Source of the DNA: Hyphomicrobiales bacterium
GTDB taxonomy: Bacteria > Pseudomonadota > Alphaproteobacteria > Rhizobiales > JACESI01
DNA length: 64,000 nucleotides
NCBI GenBank assembly: GCA_013911885.1
Contig: JACESI010000007.1
Coordinates: 99,592 to 163,591 of the forward strand
Reading direction: 5' to 3'
Part shown: piece by piece, positions 40,723-51,883 of the stretch
Position numbering within the stretch: position 1 is the first letter of the stretch
Layout: every line of letters starts with the position of its first letter
Position numbers and translations under genes: made by a program
The notes under the pieces: model-generated
Databases searched by the model: none
What the model was told of the DNA's origin: nothing
Seen by the model: only the letters and a program-made list of their open reading frames with translations

Positions 40723-41547
40723 ATGGCGGCTTGCGAACAGGCGTTCCAAAAATTCCAGTCTGACCATTCTGGCTCAAATGGAAAAACCGATCGTAATGTG
40801 GTCATCATGGTCGAGAAGCTGGTTGTTGGCTTTGGCGAAACGCTGGTGCTCGATCAGCTCGATCTTGCGGTTTATGAGCGCGAAATCCTCGGTTTTGTCG
40901 GCGCTTCAGGCACTGGCAAATCGGTATTGATGCGCACTATTCTCGGTCTCACGCCGAAGCGGTCCGGCGCGGTCCATATTCTGGGCCTCGACTATGACAA
41001 GGCAACGCCCCATCAGTGTAAGTCGGCTGACCGCCTTCTCGGGGTGCTTTTCCAGCATGGCGCTCTGTTTTCCTCGTTGACCGTCAAGCAGAATATCCAG
41101 GTGCCCATGCGGGAATATTTCGATCTCAGCCCCGCTCTGATGGACGAGCTTGCCATGATGAAAATGGAGCTTGTGGGGCTCGCGCCTGATGCCGCCGACA
41201 AATTGCCGTCCGAGCTTTCGGGCGGCATGATCAAGCGCGCGGGTCTCGCCCGAGCCCTTGCGCTTGATCCGGCGGTGATCTTTCTCGATGAGCCGACATC
41301 GGGGCTGGATCCGATCGGCGCGCAGGAGTTCGACAAATTGATCTTGAACCTTCGCGACACTTTAGGCGTTACAGTCTTCATGGTGACGCACGACCTCGAC
41401 AGCCTTTTCGCCATTTGTGATAGAATTGCCGTGCTTGGCAATAAACGGGTACTGGTTGAGGGTAAGCCTGAGGAAATGCTTGAATTTGAAGACCCTTGGG
41501 TCAATGCATATTTCAACGGAGAGCGCGCCAGACGCGCCCACAAATAG
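40723..41547 (+). CDS. MlaF-type ABC ATP-binding protein
   Basis: Walker A GASGTGKSVLMRTILG; LSGGMIKRAGLARAL; DEPTSGLDPIGAQEFD. Confidence 0.91.
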   Translation: MAACEQAFQKFQSDHSGSNGKTDRNVVIMVEKLVVGFGETLVLDQLDLAVYEREILGFVGASGTGKSVLMRTILGLTPKRSGAVHILGLDYDKATPHQCKSADRLLGVLFQHGALFSSLTVKQNIQVPMREYFDLSPALMDELAMMKMELVGLAPDAADKLPSELSGGMIKRAGLARALALDPAVIFLDEPTSGLDPIGAQEFDKLILNLRDTLGVTVFMVTHDLDSLFAICDRIAVLGNKRVLVEGKPEEMLEFEDPWVNAYFNGERARRAHK

Positions 41548-41585
41548 GGTCCCGGCCTTCAAGAAGATGGCCTTCAGCAGACACG

Positions 41586-43055
41586 ATGGAAACACGCGCT
41601 AATTATCTTGCAATTGGGTTGTTTACGCTTCTGGTCTTTGCCATGGCGTTCGGGCTGATCTATTGGCTGGTGCGCTTTAACGAGACCGGCGCGGCACGCA
41701 TGGTCGATCTTGTCGTTCCCGGCAATGCGGGCGGGCTGCAAAAGGGCAACGGCGTCCTTTTCAATGGATTGCGGATCGGCAGTGTCGTTTCCGTCGAATG
41801 GCGCAAGGATGATCCGGCTCATGTTTATGCCAAACTCAAGATTGACGCCGATGCGCCGATCCGTGAAGACACGACAGTGACAATCGCAAGCCAGCCTCTG
41901 ACGGGCCTGTCGACGGTTTCGCTGGTCGGCGGCTCACCGGAAAAAGATCTCATCCTTGAGCGGGAAGCGGTGCCGGTGCTGGTCGCGCGTCCCTCTCAGC
42001 TCAATGAGACGCTGGAAGCGGCGGGCAAAACCGTTCAGATCGCGAATGCGACCCTGCTGCGGATCAATAAGTTAGTCGAGACCAATCTTCCCTCGATAAA
42101 CCGCACCATCGCCAATGCGGAAGCGTTCAGTTCATCCCTTGCGACAAACACAGACGATATTTCCGCGCTGATGGACAATATCGGCAAGGCCTCTTTATCC
42201 ATCGCCAAATTGGGCGATACGCTGGACAGCATTTCCGGCAATGTGACTGATATCGTGAAAGCGGTGGAGCCGGAAAAGGTTCGCAGTACGCTTGCGAATG
42301 TTGAGAAAATATCTGGAGATATTGCGCGCAATTCGGGTGAGATCGACGGCATTGTCGGTGATGCAAAGGCGGCAGTCCAGAATTTCTCCGGGTTGACGGC
42401 GGGTCTCAACACCACCGTTTCTGCAATCAATGGCGAACAGCTTGCCCGCATGCTCAGCAATGTTGAAACCTTTTCGGGCCAACTGACCGGCACCTTGACC
42501 AAGGTGGACGGCATATTGAACGCCGTCGATCAGGAACGTATCAACCGTGTGCTCACCAGCGTCGAAGGCTTTGCCTCGCGACTGGATAAATCCGGCAGTG
42601 AGATTGACGCGATCATCGCCAATGCCAAGTCTGCGACCGAGGATGTGACCGGCTTTACCAAGACCCTTTCGGAGAACAAGGAGAATTTCGACAAGATCAT
42701 CAAGGATGCGACCGTGATATCGGAGCGGCTGATCAAGACGAGCGAGGCGGTGACCCGTCTTGTCGGGCGCGTGGACGGTCTGGTGGAGGGCAACGGACGC
42801 GGCCTGGTGCAGGAGGCGACCGACGCCGCCAAATCCATTCGTCGTGTCGCGGAAAGTTTTGAAGCGCGCGCGGATTCGATTTCGAGCGGCCTTGATCGCT
42901 TCTCCAACCGGGGCCTCAAAGACATCGAGGCGCTGATTTCGCAAAGCCGCGATGCGGTTTCCAGACTCGAAAACATCATTGGCAATATTGATGAAAACCC
43001 GGCGCAGTTTCTGCTTGGCGGAAGCAAAGTACCAGAATATCGTCAGCGGCGCTGA
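41586..43055 (+). CDS. MlaD/MCE family protein
   Basis: METRANYLAIGLFTLLVFAMAFGLIYWL TM, MCE domain (NGLRIGSVVSVEWRKDDPAHVYAKLKID...SQPLTGLSTVSLVGG), long helical tail. Confidence 0.9.
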   Translation: METRANYLAIGLFTLLVFAMAFGLIYWLVRFNETGAARMVDLVVPGNAGGLQKGNGVLFNGLRIGSVVSVEWRKDDPAHVYAKLKIDADAPIREDTTVTIASQPLTGLSTVSLVGGSPEKDLILEREAVPVLVARPSQLNETLEAAGKTVQIANATLLRINKLVETNLPSINRTIANAEAFSSSLATNTDDISALMDNIGKASLSIAKLGDTLDSISGNVTDIVKAVEPEKVRSTLANVEKISGDIARNSGEIDGIVGDAKAAVQNFSGLTAGLNTTVSAINGEQLARMLSNVETFSGQLTGTLTKVDGILNAVDQERINRVLTSVEGFASRLDKSGSEIDAIIANAKSATEDVTGFTKTLSENKENFDKIIKDATVISERLIKTSEAVTRLVGRVDGLVEGNGRGLVQEATDAAKSIRRVAESFEARADSISSGLDRFSNRGLKDIEALISQSRDAVSRLENIIGNIDENPAQFLLGGSKVPEYRQRR

Positions 43056-43209
43056 GCACGCGCCGTGCTTGTTTTCCCGAGATTGATGGACTTGATAGAA
43101 GCGGGCCTGTTTGAACGGGTTTCCCTCTCTGATAGGGTTCGAAAATCAGTGCGATTCCCGACCGGAAAAATTTTCAACAATCCTGATACTCTGATGAATA
43201 GTGAGCGTT

Positions 43210-43815
43210 ATGGCCATGACTAGAACCTTCAGACGCAGCATCGGCTTTGCGCTCACCGTAATGCTTGTGTCCGGTTGTGCGCTGATTGTGCCGCCGGCAG
43301 CGCCCACGGTCTATGATCTGTTCGTGAGCGATCGGTTTGCAACAATTGCAGGCGACACGCCTAGCCAAATTCTGATTGCCAATCCGAAGGTTCTCAGTTC
43401 GCTCGACAATGACCGCATCCTGATTAAGCCATCTGTTGCTGAAATCAGCTATTTGGGCGATGTTCGCTGGAGCGATAAAACGCCGCGGCTGCTCCAGGCC
43501 TATATCAGCCGTGCCCTCGCCAAGAGTGGCGGCGCGCGGGCAGTTGGTCTTCCTGGGGACGGGCTTCTGATCGATCATCAGTTGCTGTTGGATATCCGCG
43601 CCTTCCAGATTGAGGTCGCTGAGAGCGGAACCAGAGCGCGTGTTGAATTTGGTGTGCGCATTCTCAACGACAAGAACGGGCTTGTTATTGCAAGCCAAAC
43701 CTTCGAGACCGCTGTTCCGGCGAGTGATGATGCCGTCGGAGCTGTCAAGGCGCTCAATGAGGCGCTCGACCGTGTGACGGCGGACCTGCTGACTTGGGTC
43801 TACGCGAAAATCTAA
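43210..43815 (+). CDS. ABC-type transport auxiliary lipoprotein (PqiC/LptE-like group)
   Basis: Lipobox VMLVSGC; ABC_trans_aux pattern YLGDVRWSDKTPRLLQAYISRAL; 3' end of mla operon. Confidence 0.8.
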   Translation: MAMTRTFRRSIGFALTVMLVSGCALIVPPAAPTVYDLFVSDRFATIAGDTPSQILIANPKVLSSLDNDRILIKPSVAEISYLGDVRWSDKTPRLLQAYISRALAKSGGARAVGLPGDGLLIDHQLLLDIRAFQIEVAESGTRARVEFGVRILNDKNGLVIASQTFETAVPASDDAVGAVKALNEALDRVTADLLTWVYAKI

Positions 43816-43946: not shown

Positions 43947-46900
43947 TCAGTCGAAGCGACCGGTTGCCTGCGCGAGGATCGTATAGAGCCTGCCAACATC
44001 GGAATTGAGATAAGCCTCGGACTGGCGGTCACCATCGGCGCCGCGGGAGACTTCGAGAATGAGACCTTCGAATTCGGCGATATAGCGCCCAACAGTTTCC
44101 GCGAAATCCGGGATGCTTGCAACATTGCGGCGGATTTCATCGCGCAGGCGCGGGCTTTCGAGGGTCCGCATCCGGCGTGTGAAGACATTGCGCTCGCCAC
44201 GCTGATAGCGTTCCCAAAGCTCGATTGTCGCATCGCGGTCGATCACGCGGGCGATATCCACTGAAAGTGAATAGAGCGATTCGACGATATGCTGCGGCGA
44301 GCGGCGGGAGCTGGCAGTCTGGCGGATGACAGGCTCTGCGGGCTGAGGTGCAGGGGAACGCGGGCGCGCGGGCTCCCCTTCTGTCGAGGCACGACGGAGA
44401 AGGTCTTTCACCCATCCGCCTTCAAGGGAGGAGGACGGCGCGGGCTCTGCCGGTGCTCTCGCGATCGGCGCCTGCGTCTGGATTGGAGACTGTGCTGGTG
44501 CCCTGAAAGGTGCCTGAATTGGAGCCGCTGTATAAGCCTCGCGTTCAGCCTGTGGCTCGGAGCGGCGCGTGAAAGCGGGCTGCTCGTCGTCATAGGAGCG
44601 GGCTGGAGATTGGGCTGGAGCGCCTGTTGGTGCGCGCGACGGCTGAAGCTGTGTATCACTCCGCGTCATATCGAAAAGTGCTTGAGAAAGCGGCGATGTC
44701 GCTTCCTGTTCACGGGTGACCGGGGAAGGCCGATAGGTGTCCTGTGCAACCGTTTCACTCATTGCAGACGGGCGCGCCGCTTCGGCAACAGCATAAGCAT
44801 GCTGCGGCTGAGCGCGTTTCGGCTGCTCGACCACATTGGTGGACCGTATGGAAACCGGGCCGCGCTGGTCGCGCTGGGCATTGACGATTTCACTGAGATC
44901 GTTGAGCGCGCGGACCTGCTCGCTCACGAGACGGCGCATCGCTGCGGTGCTTTCCCTGGTTTCTTCGGGCAGATCGAAGACGCCGCGTTTGATTTCGGCG
45001 CGGGTTGCCTGAAGATCGGCCTGAATCGTGTTCGCCACGCGGCGCATTTCCTCGGAAGCCGCGGTGAAGCGTTCGGTCGCCTCGGTGATCGCCGCATTCA
45101 TCTGGATATTCGCGCCATTGCGCAGTTTTTCCAGTTGGTTGGAAATTTCCTTTGCGGCCTGATCGGCGCTTGACGAAAGATTTGCCGATACAAGCCGGGC
45201 GCGTTCTTCTGACTGCTTGATCGTATCGTTCATGAGGCCCGCGAAGGAGCGCATCAGCGCCTCGATGTCCGAACTCTTCGAGACAAGGCCCTGAGACAGG
45301 ATTTCGATCACGCGCTGGCGATCTTCGATCGTGCCGTCAAGGTTGTTGCCGGCGGAGATCAGCATAGAGGCAGCATCCTCGAGGGCGCGGCTTTGTCCTT
45401 CGAAGCGCGAGGCAAGCGCGCCAGTATCGCGGATGGTGAGTTCCGAAATCTCGCGGAGCTTCCCAATTTCCTCGGCAAGCTGCCGGTTTGCTGCATCTGA
45501 TTGACCGGCGGCCTGCGCCACGGCATTGCGGATTTCGAGCGAGCGGTTGGTGAGGCCGGTCTCGATGGTTGCGAGATTCTTGTCGGCGTTTGCAAGGACA
45601 TTACGCAGCGTTTCGTTGCTGTCGCCAATGCGTGCGAGGACCTGATTGACATCGCCGATCTGGCTTTTGAGTTCGGCAATGACCCGTCCGCTTTCAGCCT
45701 GAAGGGCTTCGACAACATTTCCGCTCTGGGCCTGAAGCGCGTTCACCACGGCAGCGCTGGTGCGCGCCACGTTGGAAGCAATGGCAGCGCTTTTCTCATC
45801 GATGGCGGTGATGAAACTCGAACTGGTGCGCGTGATCACATCATTCAGAGCGGAGCCTTTCTCATCCATGGCGTTGATGAGGTTTGCCCCATCATTGTTG
45901 AGAAGTGCGCTCAGCGCCTGTGTCCGCTCACGCAGCATGTCCTCGACATCCGTCGCATGGCGGATCAGGGTCTGTTCGGACAAGCTCGTGCTTGATTTCA
46001 GGGTATCCTGAAGGCGTATGGCGGACTTTTCGATATCCGAGGCCGTGTCGTTCGCCTGTGCGCGAATACCGGTGGAGAGCGACGACAGAGCGCCGATGAG
46101 ACGCTGACCGGCCTCATAGGATTTCGACGCAAAGAGGCTCGCCGCTTCATCTGCTGCACGGGAGAAATTGTGGCTCGATTCTTCCGAAAGCGCCGCGATG
46201 CGCGTATGCGCCGATTCGGCATTTGCCACCAGATTGTTGCTCGCCCCGACGAGGCGGACTTCGACAAGTTCGTGGATGCGCGAGGCATTGGTCTCGAGTG
46301 TGCCGACAACCGCGTCGATATTGGTTGCAAGTTCGCCGATATTGCCCGCGAGAGAGATATTCACCGCCTCGACACGCTCACTTAAAGTATCGGTGACATG
46401 TTTCGCCTGACTTTCGAGGGTCCTGACCGCGTCGGCGAGGCTGCGATCGAGCGTGCCGGTGAGTTCGCGGGTCTGGGTTTCGAGGGTTTCGCCAACCGTT
46501 GAAACACGCTCGGAGAGGGCGGTCGTCAGCTCGTTCTGCCCTTCGGAGAATGTATTGGCGAGTTCGCGGGTCCGTTCGATCAGGGTGTCACTGATCTGGC
46601 GGCCGCGCTTGTCGAGGGCCTCGTCGATGGTCTTCACACGTTCGGAGATGTCGGTCGAGATTTCCTGAGACTTGATGCGGAAACTCTCGGATGCCTGATC
46701 GAGATGGCCCTGAAGCTCGTCGGAGAGGCTCGTGGCGCGGCTAGCAAATGTATCGGTGACGGCGCTGAGCCGGTTCGAGATCGAGCCCGATACTTCGTCA
46801 AGGCGGCTTTCCAGCGCCCCGTCGATTTCTGACAGGCGTTTGGTGAAGACATCGTCCATCTGGCCGACGCGTTCGCCGAGGGTTTTTGTCAGAACCTGAC

Positions 46901-48851
46901 CTTTTTCACCCACGATTGAATCGATCTGAATGAGGCGGCTGTCGATACCGGCCCTAAGGCTTGCCGATCTGTCCTCGATGTTCTGAATGAGTTCAAGGCC
47001 GGTCGCGGCGAGTTGCTGGTTCAGGTTTTCACCGCGCATGGAAAGCGCCTTGGCAACCTGTTCGCCGACATAGGCGATCTTTTCGCCCATCACATTCTGA
47101 TTGGCGGAGAACGTGTCGTTGACCCGAATTGTTGTTTCGGAAATGCTGTCGATGAGGCCGATGGTCCGATTTTCAATGAGTTTCGCGACATCATCGCCGG
47201 TCGCGCCGATCCGCTCGACCAGGGCGTTGCCGCTGTTCACGACGAGACCTTCGATCCGGCCTGTGACCTCAGTGAGATCAGCGGTGAGGGTGTCGCCGCG
47301 CTGTGAGATGAGATCGGCAAGGCGGGCGCCGATATCATCGAAACGGTCGGTAATGTCCGAGCTTCTGAGCGAGAAGTCGACCATCAGGGCGTTGGTCGAA
47401 GTGCGCATCTGCTCGGTGATTTCGCCGGACTGGCGTGCGATGGTCGCCGTGATGGAATTGCCGGTTGTCTGCATCTCCTCGGCGAAGGCGGCGGACTGGT
47501 TGCTGAGATTGCTGGTGATTTCCGAACCCGTATCGGCAAGCGTCGCCGTTATGGTCTGCGAGCGTTCGGTGAGCGCGTCGCGCACGGCATTGCCGACTTC
47601 GGCGAGCTTGCTTGCGACCTCGGTTCCGCGCGTTGAGAGGGACAGGGTGATGCTTTCCCCGATTGTCGCGAGATCACCGGTCACGGTGGTTCCGATCTGC
47701 GAAAGATTGGCGCTGATGTCGGCGCTCTTGGTCGTGAGATCGTCGGTCAGTTTCTGGCTGATGCCGGAGAGTTCGCTCGTCACCTTCTCGCCGACATCGG
47801 CAAGTTCATCAACGGTAGAGCGGCCGGTCGCCGTCAGTCGACCGATCAGGCTCTCGCCCTGTCCGGAAAGGGCGGAAACGAGGCTCTCGCCGGCTGAATC
47901 GATTTCCCTCGCAATCGACTCTGCTTGCTCGGAAATGGTGCTCGTGATGGAATCACCCATCGACTTGACGTTTTTGGACACGCCTTCAAGGTCCGAGGTG
48001 ACTCTGGAACCGATCGACAGGATTTCCTCGCTGAGATCGTTCTTTGCTGTCGAGAGCGATGTGCCGATGCGCTCGGCATTGTTGAGGATCGCTTCGCGCT
48101 GGCTCGACAATTCCTCGATCAGGCCGCGAATGCGCAGTTCGTTATCGGAATAGGATCGCTCAAGCGACATCATCTCATTGTGGACCAGGACTTCAAGCTC
48201 GCCGGCCCGGGCGAGAACGCGCTCGACGCCGTCGCCCATGGCGGCAACTTCGCGCCGCACGGCCTGACCGACCTTGACGATGGATTCGGTTGCAATGTCT
48301 TCCGGCTCCGCGAGGCGCAGGGCGACTTCGGACATGGAATTCGCGGCAAGCCGCATTTCCTGTGCGCGCCACATCAAAAACGCCATGACGAAGAAAAACA
48401 GGATCGGGACAATGCTCGCCACCAGAAAAGAAACCGCGGAGGGCTGGTTCAGAAGGGCGAGGAGCTGGGCGTTGGTCGTGATATCGGCTGCAAAGAACCG
48501 TGCGCCAAGCAGGCCCGCGCCGACAAGCCAGAGCGCAGAGACGATTGTCGCCCACCAGAAAGCTGCTGCCGAAGGTCGGCGGTTCATGCCATAGACAATG
48601 CTTCCGATGGCGCGGCGGTCGTCATTCGCAGGTGACCGTTTGGCCGCGTTCGCAAGGGTAGCGTTGTCTCGGGCCGATGTCCTCGACTTTGTTGCAGGCT
48701 GCAAGGTGGCGTCTGATTTCAGATCAGCGGATGCGGCGCCGGTGCCGGCTTCGAGGTCAAGATCAAGATCTCCGAAATCGAGTTTCAGAGCCTCTTCCAC
48801 TGCATCAATGGCCGCCTGGGCCGGATCAATCGCTTGCGGAGTTTTCGCCAT
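43947..48851 (-). CDS. Giant membrane-anchored helical repeat protein; candidate growth pole ring protein (GPR/RgsE-like)
   Basis: 1634 aa; two adjacent TM segments (about residues 97-120 and 138-161); 49 consecutive 11-residue repeats (residues 310-848); proline-rich region before a conserved C-terminus. Confidence 0.75.
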   Translation of the reverse strand: MAKTPQAIDPAQAAIDAVEEALKLDFGDLDLDLEAGTGAASADLKSDATLQPATKSRTSARDNATLANAAKRSPANDDRRAIGSIVYGMNRRPSAAAFWWATIVSALWLVGAGLLGARFFAADITTNAQLLALLNQPSAVSFLVASIVPILFFFVMAFLMWRAQEMRLAANSMSEVALRLAEPEDIATESIVKVGQAVRREVAAMGDGVERVLARAGELEVLVHNEMMSLERSYSDNELRIRGLIEELSSQREAILNNAERIGTSLSTAKNDLSEEILSIGSRVTSDLEGVSKNVKSMGDSITSTISEQAESIAREIDSAGESLVSALSGQGESLIGRLTATGRSTVDELADVGEKVTSELSGISQKLTDDLTTKSADISANLSQIGTTVTGDLATIGESITLSLSTRGTEVASKLAEVGNAVRDALTERSQTITATLADTGSEITSNLSNQSAAFAEEMQTTGNSITATIARQSGEITEQMRTSTNALMVDFSLRSSDITDRFDDIGARLADLISQRGDTLTADLTEVTGRIEGLVVNSGNALVERIGATGDDVAKLIENRTIGLIDSISETTIRVNDTFSANQNVMGEKIAYVGEQVAKALSMRGENLNQQLAATGLELIQNIEDRSASLRAGIDSRLIQIDSIVGEKGQVLTKTLGERVGQMDDVFTKRLSEIDGALESRLDEVSGSISNRLSAVTDTFASRATSLSDELQGHLDQASESFRIKSQEISTDISERVKTIDEALDKRGRQISDTLIERTRELANTFSEGQNELTTALSERVSTVGETLETQTRELTGTLDRSLADAVRTLESQAKHVTDTLSERVEAVNISLAGNIGELATNIDAVVGTLETNASRIHELVEVRLVGASNNLVANAESAHTRIAALSEESSHNFSRAADEAASLFASKSYEAGQRLIGALSSLSTGIRAQANDTASDIEKSAIRLQDTLKSSTSLSEQTLIRHATDVEDMLRERTQALSALLNNDGANLINAMDEKGSALNDVITRTSSSFITAIDEKSAAIASNVARTSAAVVNALQAQSGNVVEALQAESGRVIAELKSQIGDVNQVLARIGDSNETLRNVLANADKNLATIETGLTNRSLEIRNAVAQAAGQSDAANRQLAEEIGKLREISELTIRDTGALASRFEGQSRALEDAASMLISAGNNLDGTIEDRQRVIEILSQGLVSKSSDIEALMRSFAGLMNDTIKQSEERARLVSANLSSSADQAAKEISNQLEKLRNGANIQMNAAITEATERFTAASEEMRRVANTIQADLQATRAEIKRGVFDLPEETRESTAAMRRLVSEQVRALNDLSEIVNAQRDQRGPVSIRSTNVVEQPKRAQPQHAYAVAEAARPSAMSETVAQDTYRPSPVTREQEATSPLSQALFDMTRSDTQLQPSRAPTGAPAQSPARSYDDEQPAFTRRSEPQAEREAYTAAPIQAPFRAPAQSPIQTQAPIARAPAEPAPSSSLEGGWVKDLLRRASTEGEPARPRSPAPQPAEPVIRQTASSRRSPQHIVESLYSLSVDIARVIDRDATIELWERYQRGERNVFTRRMRTLESPRLRDEIRRNVASIPDFAETVGRYIAEFEGLILEVSRGADGDRQSEAYLNSDVGRLYTILAQATGRFD
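46308..47924 (-). repeat. Coding tandem repeat, 33-bp period, 49 units (11-residue hendecads)
   Basis: e.g. GESLVSALSGQ/GESLIGRLTAT/GRSTVDELADV/GEKVTSELSGI...; hydrophobic at positions 4 and 8, no indels. Confidence 0.85.
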
Positions 48852-49345
48852 GGTACAATGCCTTAAGCAACGTCAGGGTTTTTTGGAAATGCGCGAACGC
48901 CTCTCCGACAAATTGTCTTATCAACAGCGCCGACTGGAGTCATGGCGGTATGGGTATGTTGGTTAAAATCGAGCAACTGTAACCAAGACGAAAACCCGGC
49001 AGCTCATCTGCCTGAAAACCGTCTCAGTTCTTCGCCGTTTATAGATCTCACCATCCATGCCCGCATGCATGTCTTACCGAAACCGGGTAATGTCTTTAGC
49101 GTCACATTAACGATTTGTTAAGCAATTGAAAATGGTAGTTGGAAAAACCCACAGACTGATCGCTTTTATGGTTAATAAAACAAATCCGATGGATCAGACA
49201 AAGTTACTGGAATAGTTTCCGATTTGACCACAATTTGAACCAAATCACCCACGAAAAGCGCGCTCGCCATAAGTTGTGGCGGGGTGTTAATGCGCCGTTA
49301 GTGCCCCTCTGCGAAGATCATTCCAAGAAAAGTGAAGGTTCAAGG

Positions 49346-49732
49346 ATGGGACTGATGACTGCTCAAAAAGCAATGGGATATTTGCAACAAGGATCCGGTC
49401 GGCATGGCTCCGATCGCCCGATTGATCTGGTGCATCTTGCAAAGCAGACGCTGGGTGACCGTTCGCTCGAAAACGAAGTGCTCCAGCTTTTCATGACGCA
49501 ATCCGACATTTACATGAAGCGCCTTGAATCGGCGAATGATGATCGCCAGCGCTTTGAAGCGGCTCATACGATCAAAGGCTCGGCGCGCAATATCGGTGCC
49601 TGGGGTGTTGCGGATGCAGCAGCACATCTCGAACAGGCGCAAGAGGCTGAAATTCAGGCCGATGTCGCGACGCTGCGTCTTGCATTGATGGAAACCCGTT
49701 CGTTCATCCGATCCCTGCTCGACGAATCCTGA
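49346..49732 (+). CDS. Hpt-domain protein
   Basis: FEAAHTIKGSARNIGAWGVADAAAHLEQA phosphotransfer motif. Confidence 0.85.
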   Translation: MGLMTAQKAMGYLQQGSGRHGSDRPIDLVHLAKQTLGDRSLENEVLQLFMTQSDIYMKRLESANDDRQRFEAAHTIKGSARNIGAWGVADAAAHLEQAQEAEIQADVATLRLALMETRSFIRSLLDES

Positions 49733-49895
49733 TCGCGCCTTGCGCCGCGCGTCTCTCGGCGCGGTTTCGGCCCTGAAAATCGACAACGTCGGGCCCACAT
49801 TTTCCGCGCGGCATCTTTTCCTGAGCTTCGGTGCTTGACACGACCGACAGTATCCTTATCTCGGAGTGAACAACAAAACACCGGGCTGGAGCGAC

Positions 49896-51274
<1,379 letters not shown>

Positions 51275-51283
51275 ACGCGCTAC

Positions 51284-51883
51284 TCAAAGCGGTGCGGTGT
51301 CGGCATCGAACTTTCGCTGCTCGGCATCATGGCGCCTGTGCATTTCAACCACAATCGCGCCCGCCTTCCGGTTGATTTTCTCGCAAGTCGGCTCAGGCGT
51401 CAACTTGCTGATCTTGCTAGCGATTTCATGAGTGTAACGCTCCGCAATGGCGACATGGACGAGTTCATGCACGGTCACTCTCAGAACCAGATTATCCCAA
51501 ACCCGTCTTTCGGTTTCATCGGCCTTCCTGTAGTTCACCCATTGCGGCAGAAACACCTTGATATCGGTGCGCACGGAAACCCGCGCGATGGCACAGCTAT
51601 CGGCTGATTTGTGGTATTTCAATCTCGGCACGTAGAGCGCAGTCTGGGTGACGCCGAGTTTCGCGTCATAGGCGCCATCCGGCTTGATCGGCGATTTTTT
51701 CTGAAAATCCCTGAAGAGCGACAGCCTGTCGTGGCCGCGGACCTTGAAATATTTGAACTTCTTGCTGATATCGACTTTGACAGGAGCGGCTGCAACCTGC
51801 TTCTTGCGGGGGGTGTCGGCAGCGATGGCCAATCCTGGTGCGAGGATCAGAAAAGAAAGCAGAAGTAATCTGTACACGTTCAA
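51284..51883 (-). CDS. DUF922 family putative secreted Zn-dependent protease
   Basis: Signal peptide; HELVHVAIAERYTHE (HExxH) and HDAEQRKFDADT. Confidence 0.75.
   Translation of the reverse strand: MNVYRLLLLSFLILAPGLAIAADTPRKKQVAAAPVKVDISKKFKYFKVRGHDRLSLFRDFQKKSPIKPDGAYDAKLGVTQTALYVPRLKYHKSADSCAIARVSVRTDIKVFLPQWVNYRKADETERRVWDNLVLRVTVHELVHVAIAERYTHEIASKISKLTPEPTCEKINRKAGAIVVEMHRRHDAEQRKFDADTAPL

Follow-up and report, generated by a model that had tools for sequence, protein, structure and literature searches.

A giant GPR/RgsE-type protein of a Hyphomicrobiales bacterium with a helical array that changes length almost only by whole 11-residue repeats

Introduction

In Agrobacterium tumefaciens, six foci of the growth pole ring protein GPR make up a 200-nm ring close to the growing tip. 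The protein has been assigned to the PF01442 family, and C-terminal deletions of GPR block complementation (PMC8262873). Interactions of its S. meliloti counterpart RgsE with RgsA, RgsS and TolQ have been reported (PMC7327166). The way in which GPR and RgsE organise polar growth has yet to be established (PMC8262873, PMC7822825). The GPR foci are 50 nm wide, and the authors argued that the chain must fold back (PMC8262873).

Here we describe a related locus of a Hyphomicrobiales bacterium (GenBank assembly GCA_013911885.1). The window that was analysed is a stretch of 64,000 nucleotides (contig JACESI010000007.1, positions 99,592 to 163,591 of the forward strand), and positions given below are those of the window.

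Results

An ortholog of gpr/rgsE and its neighbours

The window contains a giant gene, the product of which had been likened to GPR and RgsE in a sequence-only reading that drew on architecture. The parts of this gene and its neighbours are as follows.

41496-43815, plus strand: MlaD-type and auxiliary-lipoprotein genes of a Mla-type lipid-transport operon, convergent with gpr
43947..48851, minus strand: gpr/rgsE ortholog, as supported below, 1634 aa
43950..44303, minus strand: conserved C-terminal helical domain, residues 1517-1634 (sequence comparison and model)
44304..44861, minus strand: Pro-rich low-complexity linker, residues 1331-1516 (sequence)
44862..45617, minus strand: sequence of helical character in which the register is not strict, residues 1079-1330 (sequence)
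45618..46313, minus strand: hendecad array, second register, residues 847-1078, 21 repeats (register model)
46314..48077, minus strand: hendecad array, first register, residues 259-846, 53.5 repeats (register model)
48078..48362, minus strand: conserved membrane-proximal helix, residues 164-258 (alignment of 26 orthologs)
48363..48443, minus strand: transmembrane (TM) helix 2, residues about 137-163 (sequence and model)
48495..48566, minus strand: TM helix 1, residues about 96-119 (sequence and AlphaFold2 model)
49235..49732, plus strand: divergent Hpt (histidine phosphotransfer) gene (PF01627, E 6e-11)
49866..50216, plus strand: 2Fe-2S ferredoxin, syntenic (Pfam and synteny)
51284..51883, minus strand: DUF922 protease-like gene, syntenic with S. 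meliloti (Pfam and synteny)

The homology is now backed by sequence and synteny. The protein matched the Pfam family Apolipoprotein (PF01442) in nine stretches, with an E value of 3.5e-37 and a score of 128 bits against a cut-off of 90. When its C-terminal domain was used as a query, 39 of the 41 genomes taken from across the order gave one matching open reading frame each. In a plasmid collection, the same domain matched an S. meliloti open reading frame of 6270 bp, i.e. 2089 codons, and the published length of RgsE is 2,089 aa (PMC7327166). The Hpt, 2Fe-2S and DUF922 neighbours are common to the window and the S. meliloti locus. Finally, the hallmarks of GPR/RgsE are all present, from the pair of N-terminal TM helices and the long helix to the Pro-rich stretch and the conserved C-terminal domain. 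Taken together, the PF01442 match, the order-wide C-terminal domain, the S. meliloti ortholog with its synteny and the architecture support the view that the gene is an ortholog of A. tumefaciens GPR (Atu1348) and S. meliloti RgsE (SMc00190). The family is thus already known, and what is added here is the quantised rod length, an unnamed C-terminal domain and the linkage with the Hpt gene.

Two further matches were rejected. The match to ZorA, of the anti-phage system Zorya (24.3 bits against a cut-off of 190), concerned the coiled-coil part only, and the one to SpiroCoCo was far under the cut-off and again reflected only coiled-coil similarity. We also noted that the S. meliloti RgsE gene (L057:6076-12345) is annotated as 'kinesin' in the public record, which is a misannotation. 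The record that carries it is labelled pSymB; this label is probably wrong, because the record is 3.7 Mb long and contains bc1 and fol genes.

The N-terminus was modelled with AlphaFold2 as a single chain (residues 85-330) from 26 aligned N-termini. The model (mean pLDDT 84.5) showed two TM helices and then a single unbroken helix up to residue 329, where the modelled stretch ends. In the 26-ortholog alignment, the membrane-proximal helix carried the motifs RAQEMR...LAEPE...VGQAVRREV...ERSY.DNE. Residues 166-1330 contain only two prolines, at 183 and 1295, and the net charge of the array is -49 across 820 residues.

The C-terminal domain (118 residues) is predicted to adopt a compact helical fold, the model comprising seven helices with a mean pLDDT of 93.8. 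No Pfam family matched it, a profile search gave no credible PDB sequence match, and a fold search with the model retrieved no PDB match (best E 0.6). The best identity in this domain among the named loci scanned was 58%. By profile search, 68 of 190 genomes from across the class, about a third, contained the domain.

Of 74 named full-length loci, 73 had the Hpt gene upstream of gpr in divergent orientation, and it also lay beside gpr in most order-level loci and in some other Alphaproteobacteria. An HxxKG motif was present in 77 of 106 gpr-linked Hpt sequences. The true start of the gene in the window probably lies downstream of the first listed TTG. Its product is a possible phosphorelay partner; the papers found on RgsE or the growth pole ring showed no sign of a study of this linkage. 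For the hybrid kinase RdsA, no Hpt is known (PMC9022086). Genes of the Mla-type operon were near gpr in about half of the order-level loci.

The eleven-residue register

The sequence-only reading had divided residues 310-848 into 49 indel-free 11-mers with hydrophobic residues at positions 4 and 8 and frequent Gly or Ser at position 1. This division was found to be exact, with coordinates 47924 (start) to 46308 (end) on the minus strand. Position 8 was V, I, L, M or F in all 49 repeats, position 4 was a bulky hydrophobic residue in 46, and G or S occupied position 1 in 27; in addition, position 11 was R in 18 of the 49. The autocorrelation proposed as a check gave clear peaks against shuffled sequences, with z values at lags 11, 22 and 33 of 9.9, 11.7 and 9.5 for hydrophobicity and of 8.4, 9.5 and 9.4 for identity. 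Satellite hydrophobicity peaks at lags 7, 15, 26, 29 and 37 were as expected of a 3.67-residue helical stripe.

The repeated stretch is therefore real, but its extent had been under-counted. The register model placed a first register, without a break, at residues 259-846 and a second one at 847-1078, and residues 310-848 fall inside the first except for the last two. The break between the two registers is a shift of one inserted heptad, and the hydrophobic core switches from positions 4 and 8 in the first to positions 4 and 11 in the second. Tandem Repeats Finder found no 33-bp tandem array in the DNA of the gene, indicating that the periodicity is one of the protein. The hendecad periodicity is probably old.

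Regular register shifts were observed in two other giant proteins, every 80 residues in that of locus L043 (residues about 740-979) and about every 36 residues in that of locus L041 (residues about 1398-1506). This spacing suggests duplicated units of 6x11+2x7 and 2x11+2x7 residues, respectively.

Length change in whole repeats

We counted alignment gaps of 3 residues or longer in 39 disjoint nearest ortholog pairs. Inside the array, 91 of 130 gaps were exact multiples of 11 residues, compared with only 7 of 120 outside it, and most of the remaining in-array gaps were of the form 11a+7b. In pairs that were at least 78% identical, 37 of 46 in-array gaps were multiples of 11, and 8 of the other 9 were 11a+7 or 11a+14. 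When indels of random length were simulated in the array and aligned identically, 9.2% were multiples of 11, indicating that the effect was not made by the aligner. The binomial P values for gap lengths treat gaps as independent and are not to be taken literally. Of 574 register shifts without a gap, 565 amounted to one, two or three heptads. This is weaker evidence than the gap lengths, because the register model had been trained on this family and has a stripe that favours certain shifts. Within the order, array size ranged from about 100 to over 1650 residues. The array thus grows and shrinks almost only by whole 11-residue repeats, sometimes together with heptads. Among the 30 best-ranked of 57 papers from a search of mostly open-access literature, none joined hendecad repeats with the growth pole ring, and as far as the literature searched shows, the quantised array length is new.

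Distribution inside and outside the order

We examined 34 loci from outside the order, including Sphingomonas. Most of the proteins had one or two predicted TM segments and a mixed 7/11/18 periodicity. The register model, which was trained on Hyphomicrobiales and may be less sensitive outside the order, assigned 0-86 array residues to 32 of these loci and 326 and 376 to the other two, as compared with 943 and 779 for two Hyphomicrobiales loci in the same run. Since the sampled homologs from outside the order are almost all without the array, the long array looks derived within the order.

Most of the short arrays within the order belonged to one clade in a tree of the conserved domains. The proteins of MreB-positive genomes of the order were short (family medians 915-1391 aa; Mann-Whitney P 0.0017). 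We nonetheless dropped the idea that array length is tied to MreB loss, because five of the six MreB-positive rows fell in one well-supported clade. This clade of 10 short-array genomes comprised five MreB-positive and five MreB-negative ones; the correlation with length mostly reflects one clade and is not independent evidence.

MreB was not found in the genome from which the window comes (95% complete), the only two weak matches being DnaK and FtsA. This genome encodes a PodJ-like protein (L156:887-5818; 1644-aa frame) with a coiled coil, a TM helix, Sel1 repeats and PG_binding_1. The absence of MreB and the presence of a PodJ-like protein would be expected if the organism, like others of the order, grows at a pole, and it presumably grows in this way. 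The second PF01442 signal of the genome (C1:175099) was discarded as a GPR paralog, since Sel1 repeats, PG_binding_1 and a TM helix mark it as PodJ-like.

Discussion

A proposed register-locked rod

The interpretation that we favour, and hold to be fairly probable, is that the gpr product is a membrane-anchored coiled-coil rod that scaffolds polar growth and the length of which is set by whole repeats. It is also the simplest model that agrees both with the published findings on GPR and RgsE and with those presented here. Two N-terminal helices would anchor the protein in the inner membrane. An alpha-helix would then run without interruption from about residue 184 through the array, as a cytoplasmic rod. 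Its 11-residue register equals three turns, and the rod would most likely be a parallel multi-stranded coiled coil. The flexible Pro-rich linker that follows would carry the compact helical C-terminal domain. The membrane end may organise a zone at the growing pole. The C-terminal domain, with bound growth factors, would be kept at a set distance by the rod. As the helical seam must stay in register, the length of such a rod would change almost only by whole repeats. Family membership, synteny, the register and the quantised length change follow from the data presented here, and the polar ring, the scaffold role and the RgsE interactions come from published work on relatives. The oligomeric coiled coil, the orientation of the rod, its function as a spacer and the polar growth of this organism are what we infer.

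The rise of an alpha-helix is 0.15 nm per residue, and the 820 residues of the array would thus make a rod of about 123 nm, to which the 588 residues of the first register would contribute about 88 nm. For GPR, 600 nm has been quoted for 1,700 helical residues (PMC8262873). This corresponds to about 0.35 nm per residue, whereas an alpha-helix would give about 255 nm. Even at about 255 nm, an alpha-helical GPR would still exceed one focus, which counts against the rod.

In a wider and more tentative proposal, which we consider possible but somewhat doubtful, GPR/RgsE proteins would be register-locked molecular rods, with a length set by repeat number. A short coiled-coil ancestor, common to Hyphomicrobiales and other Alphaproteobacteria, would have gained its expanded array within the order, and the array would evolve almost only by steps of 11a+7b residues. 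The distance at which the rod holds the unnamed C-terminal domain from the membrane would differ between lineages, and a phosphotransfer (Hpt) partner would be encoded next door.

Other interpretations

Apolipoproteins, perilipin 4 and alpha-synuclein are examples of lipid-binding amphipathic helices. The array could likewise lie on the inner membrane or on lipid particles and shape or recruit polar membrane, as the PF01442 match and the adjoining Mla-type operon (MlaD domain and auxiliary lipoprotein) would suggest. The one solved structure that searches by sequence retrieved is that of apoA-IV. Its stripe, with two positions in every 11 residues, is similar, and for this reason stripe width failed to separate a coiled coil from a lipid helix, the two alternatives that the sequence-only reading had offered. 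Perilipin 4, with 29 indel-free 33-mers, also shows that indel-free 11-mers are able to coat lipid (PMC5889406). However, the array is devoid of proline, while there are 9 in the 248-residue apoA-IV segment, and its net negative charge would be unfavourable on an anionic membrane. Furthermore, a helix lying on a membrane needs no continuity of register over hundreds of residues. The unbroken register and the lack of proline favour the rod, and we regard lipid binding as unlikely, though worth keeping in mind.

Quantised length might also be purely mutational, due to slippage between repeats, and without structural constraint. Among the 481 gap instances of close pairs (overlapping, hence non-independent, pairs), 167 were at least 60% identical to the adjacent segment, and some of these events are recent tandem duplications; mutation and selection may therefore both contribute. 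Yet the repeats in the window are too diverged in DNA to show as a 33-bp array, and the register shifts, by being nearly all heptad multiples, preserve the helical seam. A purely mutational origin thus seems quite unlikely.

A folded-back array, with helical bundles like those of apolipoproteins, was proposed for GPR by its authors with the help of SWISS-MODEL, and the 50-nm foci and the apoA-IV-based models would suggest it (PMC8262873). In our opinion this is very improbable, given that the array lacks both proline and any recurrent loop, that the register continues for up to 1650 residues in relatives, and that the AlphaFold model, which covers residues 85-330 only, is one helix after TM2.

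Implications

The register-locked, quantised length leads to a specific hypothesis, that of a continuous rod rather than folded apolipoprotein bundles. If the rod is real, insertions of 11 residues should be tolerated and insertions of 5 residues should not, and rod length could be varied by whole repeats. Two concrete handles on the growth-pole machinery, both apparently unstudied, are the conserved C-terminal domain and the Hpt gene linked to gpr.

Comparison with known systems

S. meliloti RgsE (SMc00190) resembles the protein described here in its neighbours (Hpt, 2Fe-2S, DUF922), its domain order and its phase-locked hendecad array. Identity is 56% in the C-terminal domain, about 42% in the N-terminal region and 34% over the aligned full-length columns. 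RgsE is longer (2,089 versus 1,634 aa), and the difference lies mostly in the array. A. tumefaciens GPR (Atu1348; 2,115 aa) shares the two N-terminal TM helices, the PF01442 repeats, the Pro-rich region and the conserved C-terminus (PMC8262873). The comparison with GPR was made through Agrobacterium congeners (loci L107 and L153) rather than with the Atu1348 sequence itself, and these congeners have the same giant gene and Hpt neighbour.

Human apolipoprotein A-IV also has 11/22-residue amphipathic repeats, and the PDB match (E 1.4e-4) points to likeness. In contrast to the protein described here, it is secreted, punctuated by prolines, and has neither a TM segment nor a comparable C-terminal domain. 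Perilipin 4 is likewise a giant indel-free 11-mer array, but it is a lipid-droplet protein with a weakly hydrophobic face and net positive repeats that are conserved at the 33-mer level (PMC5889406).
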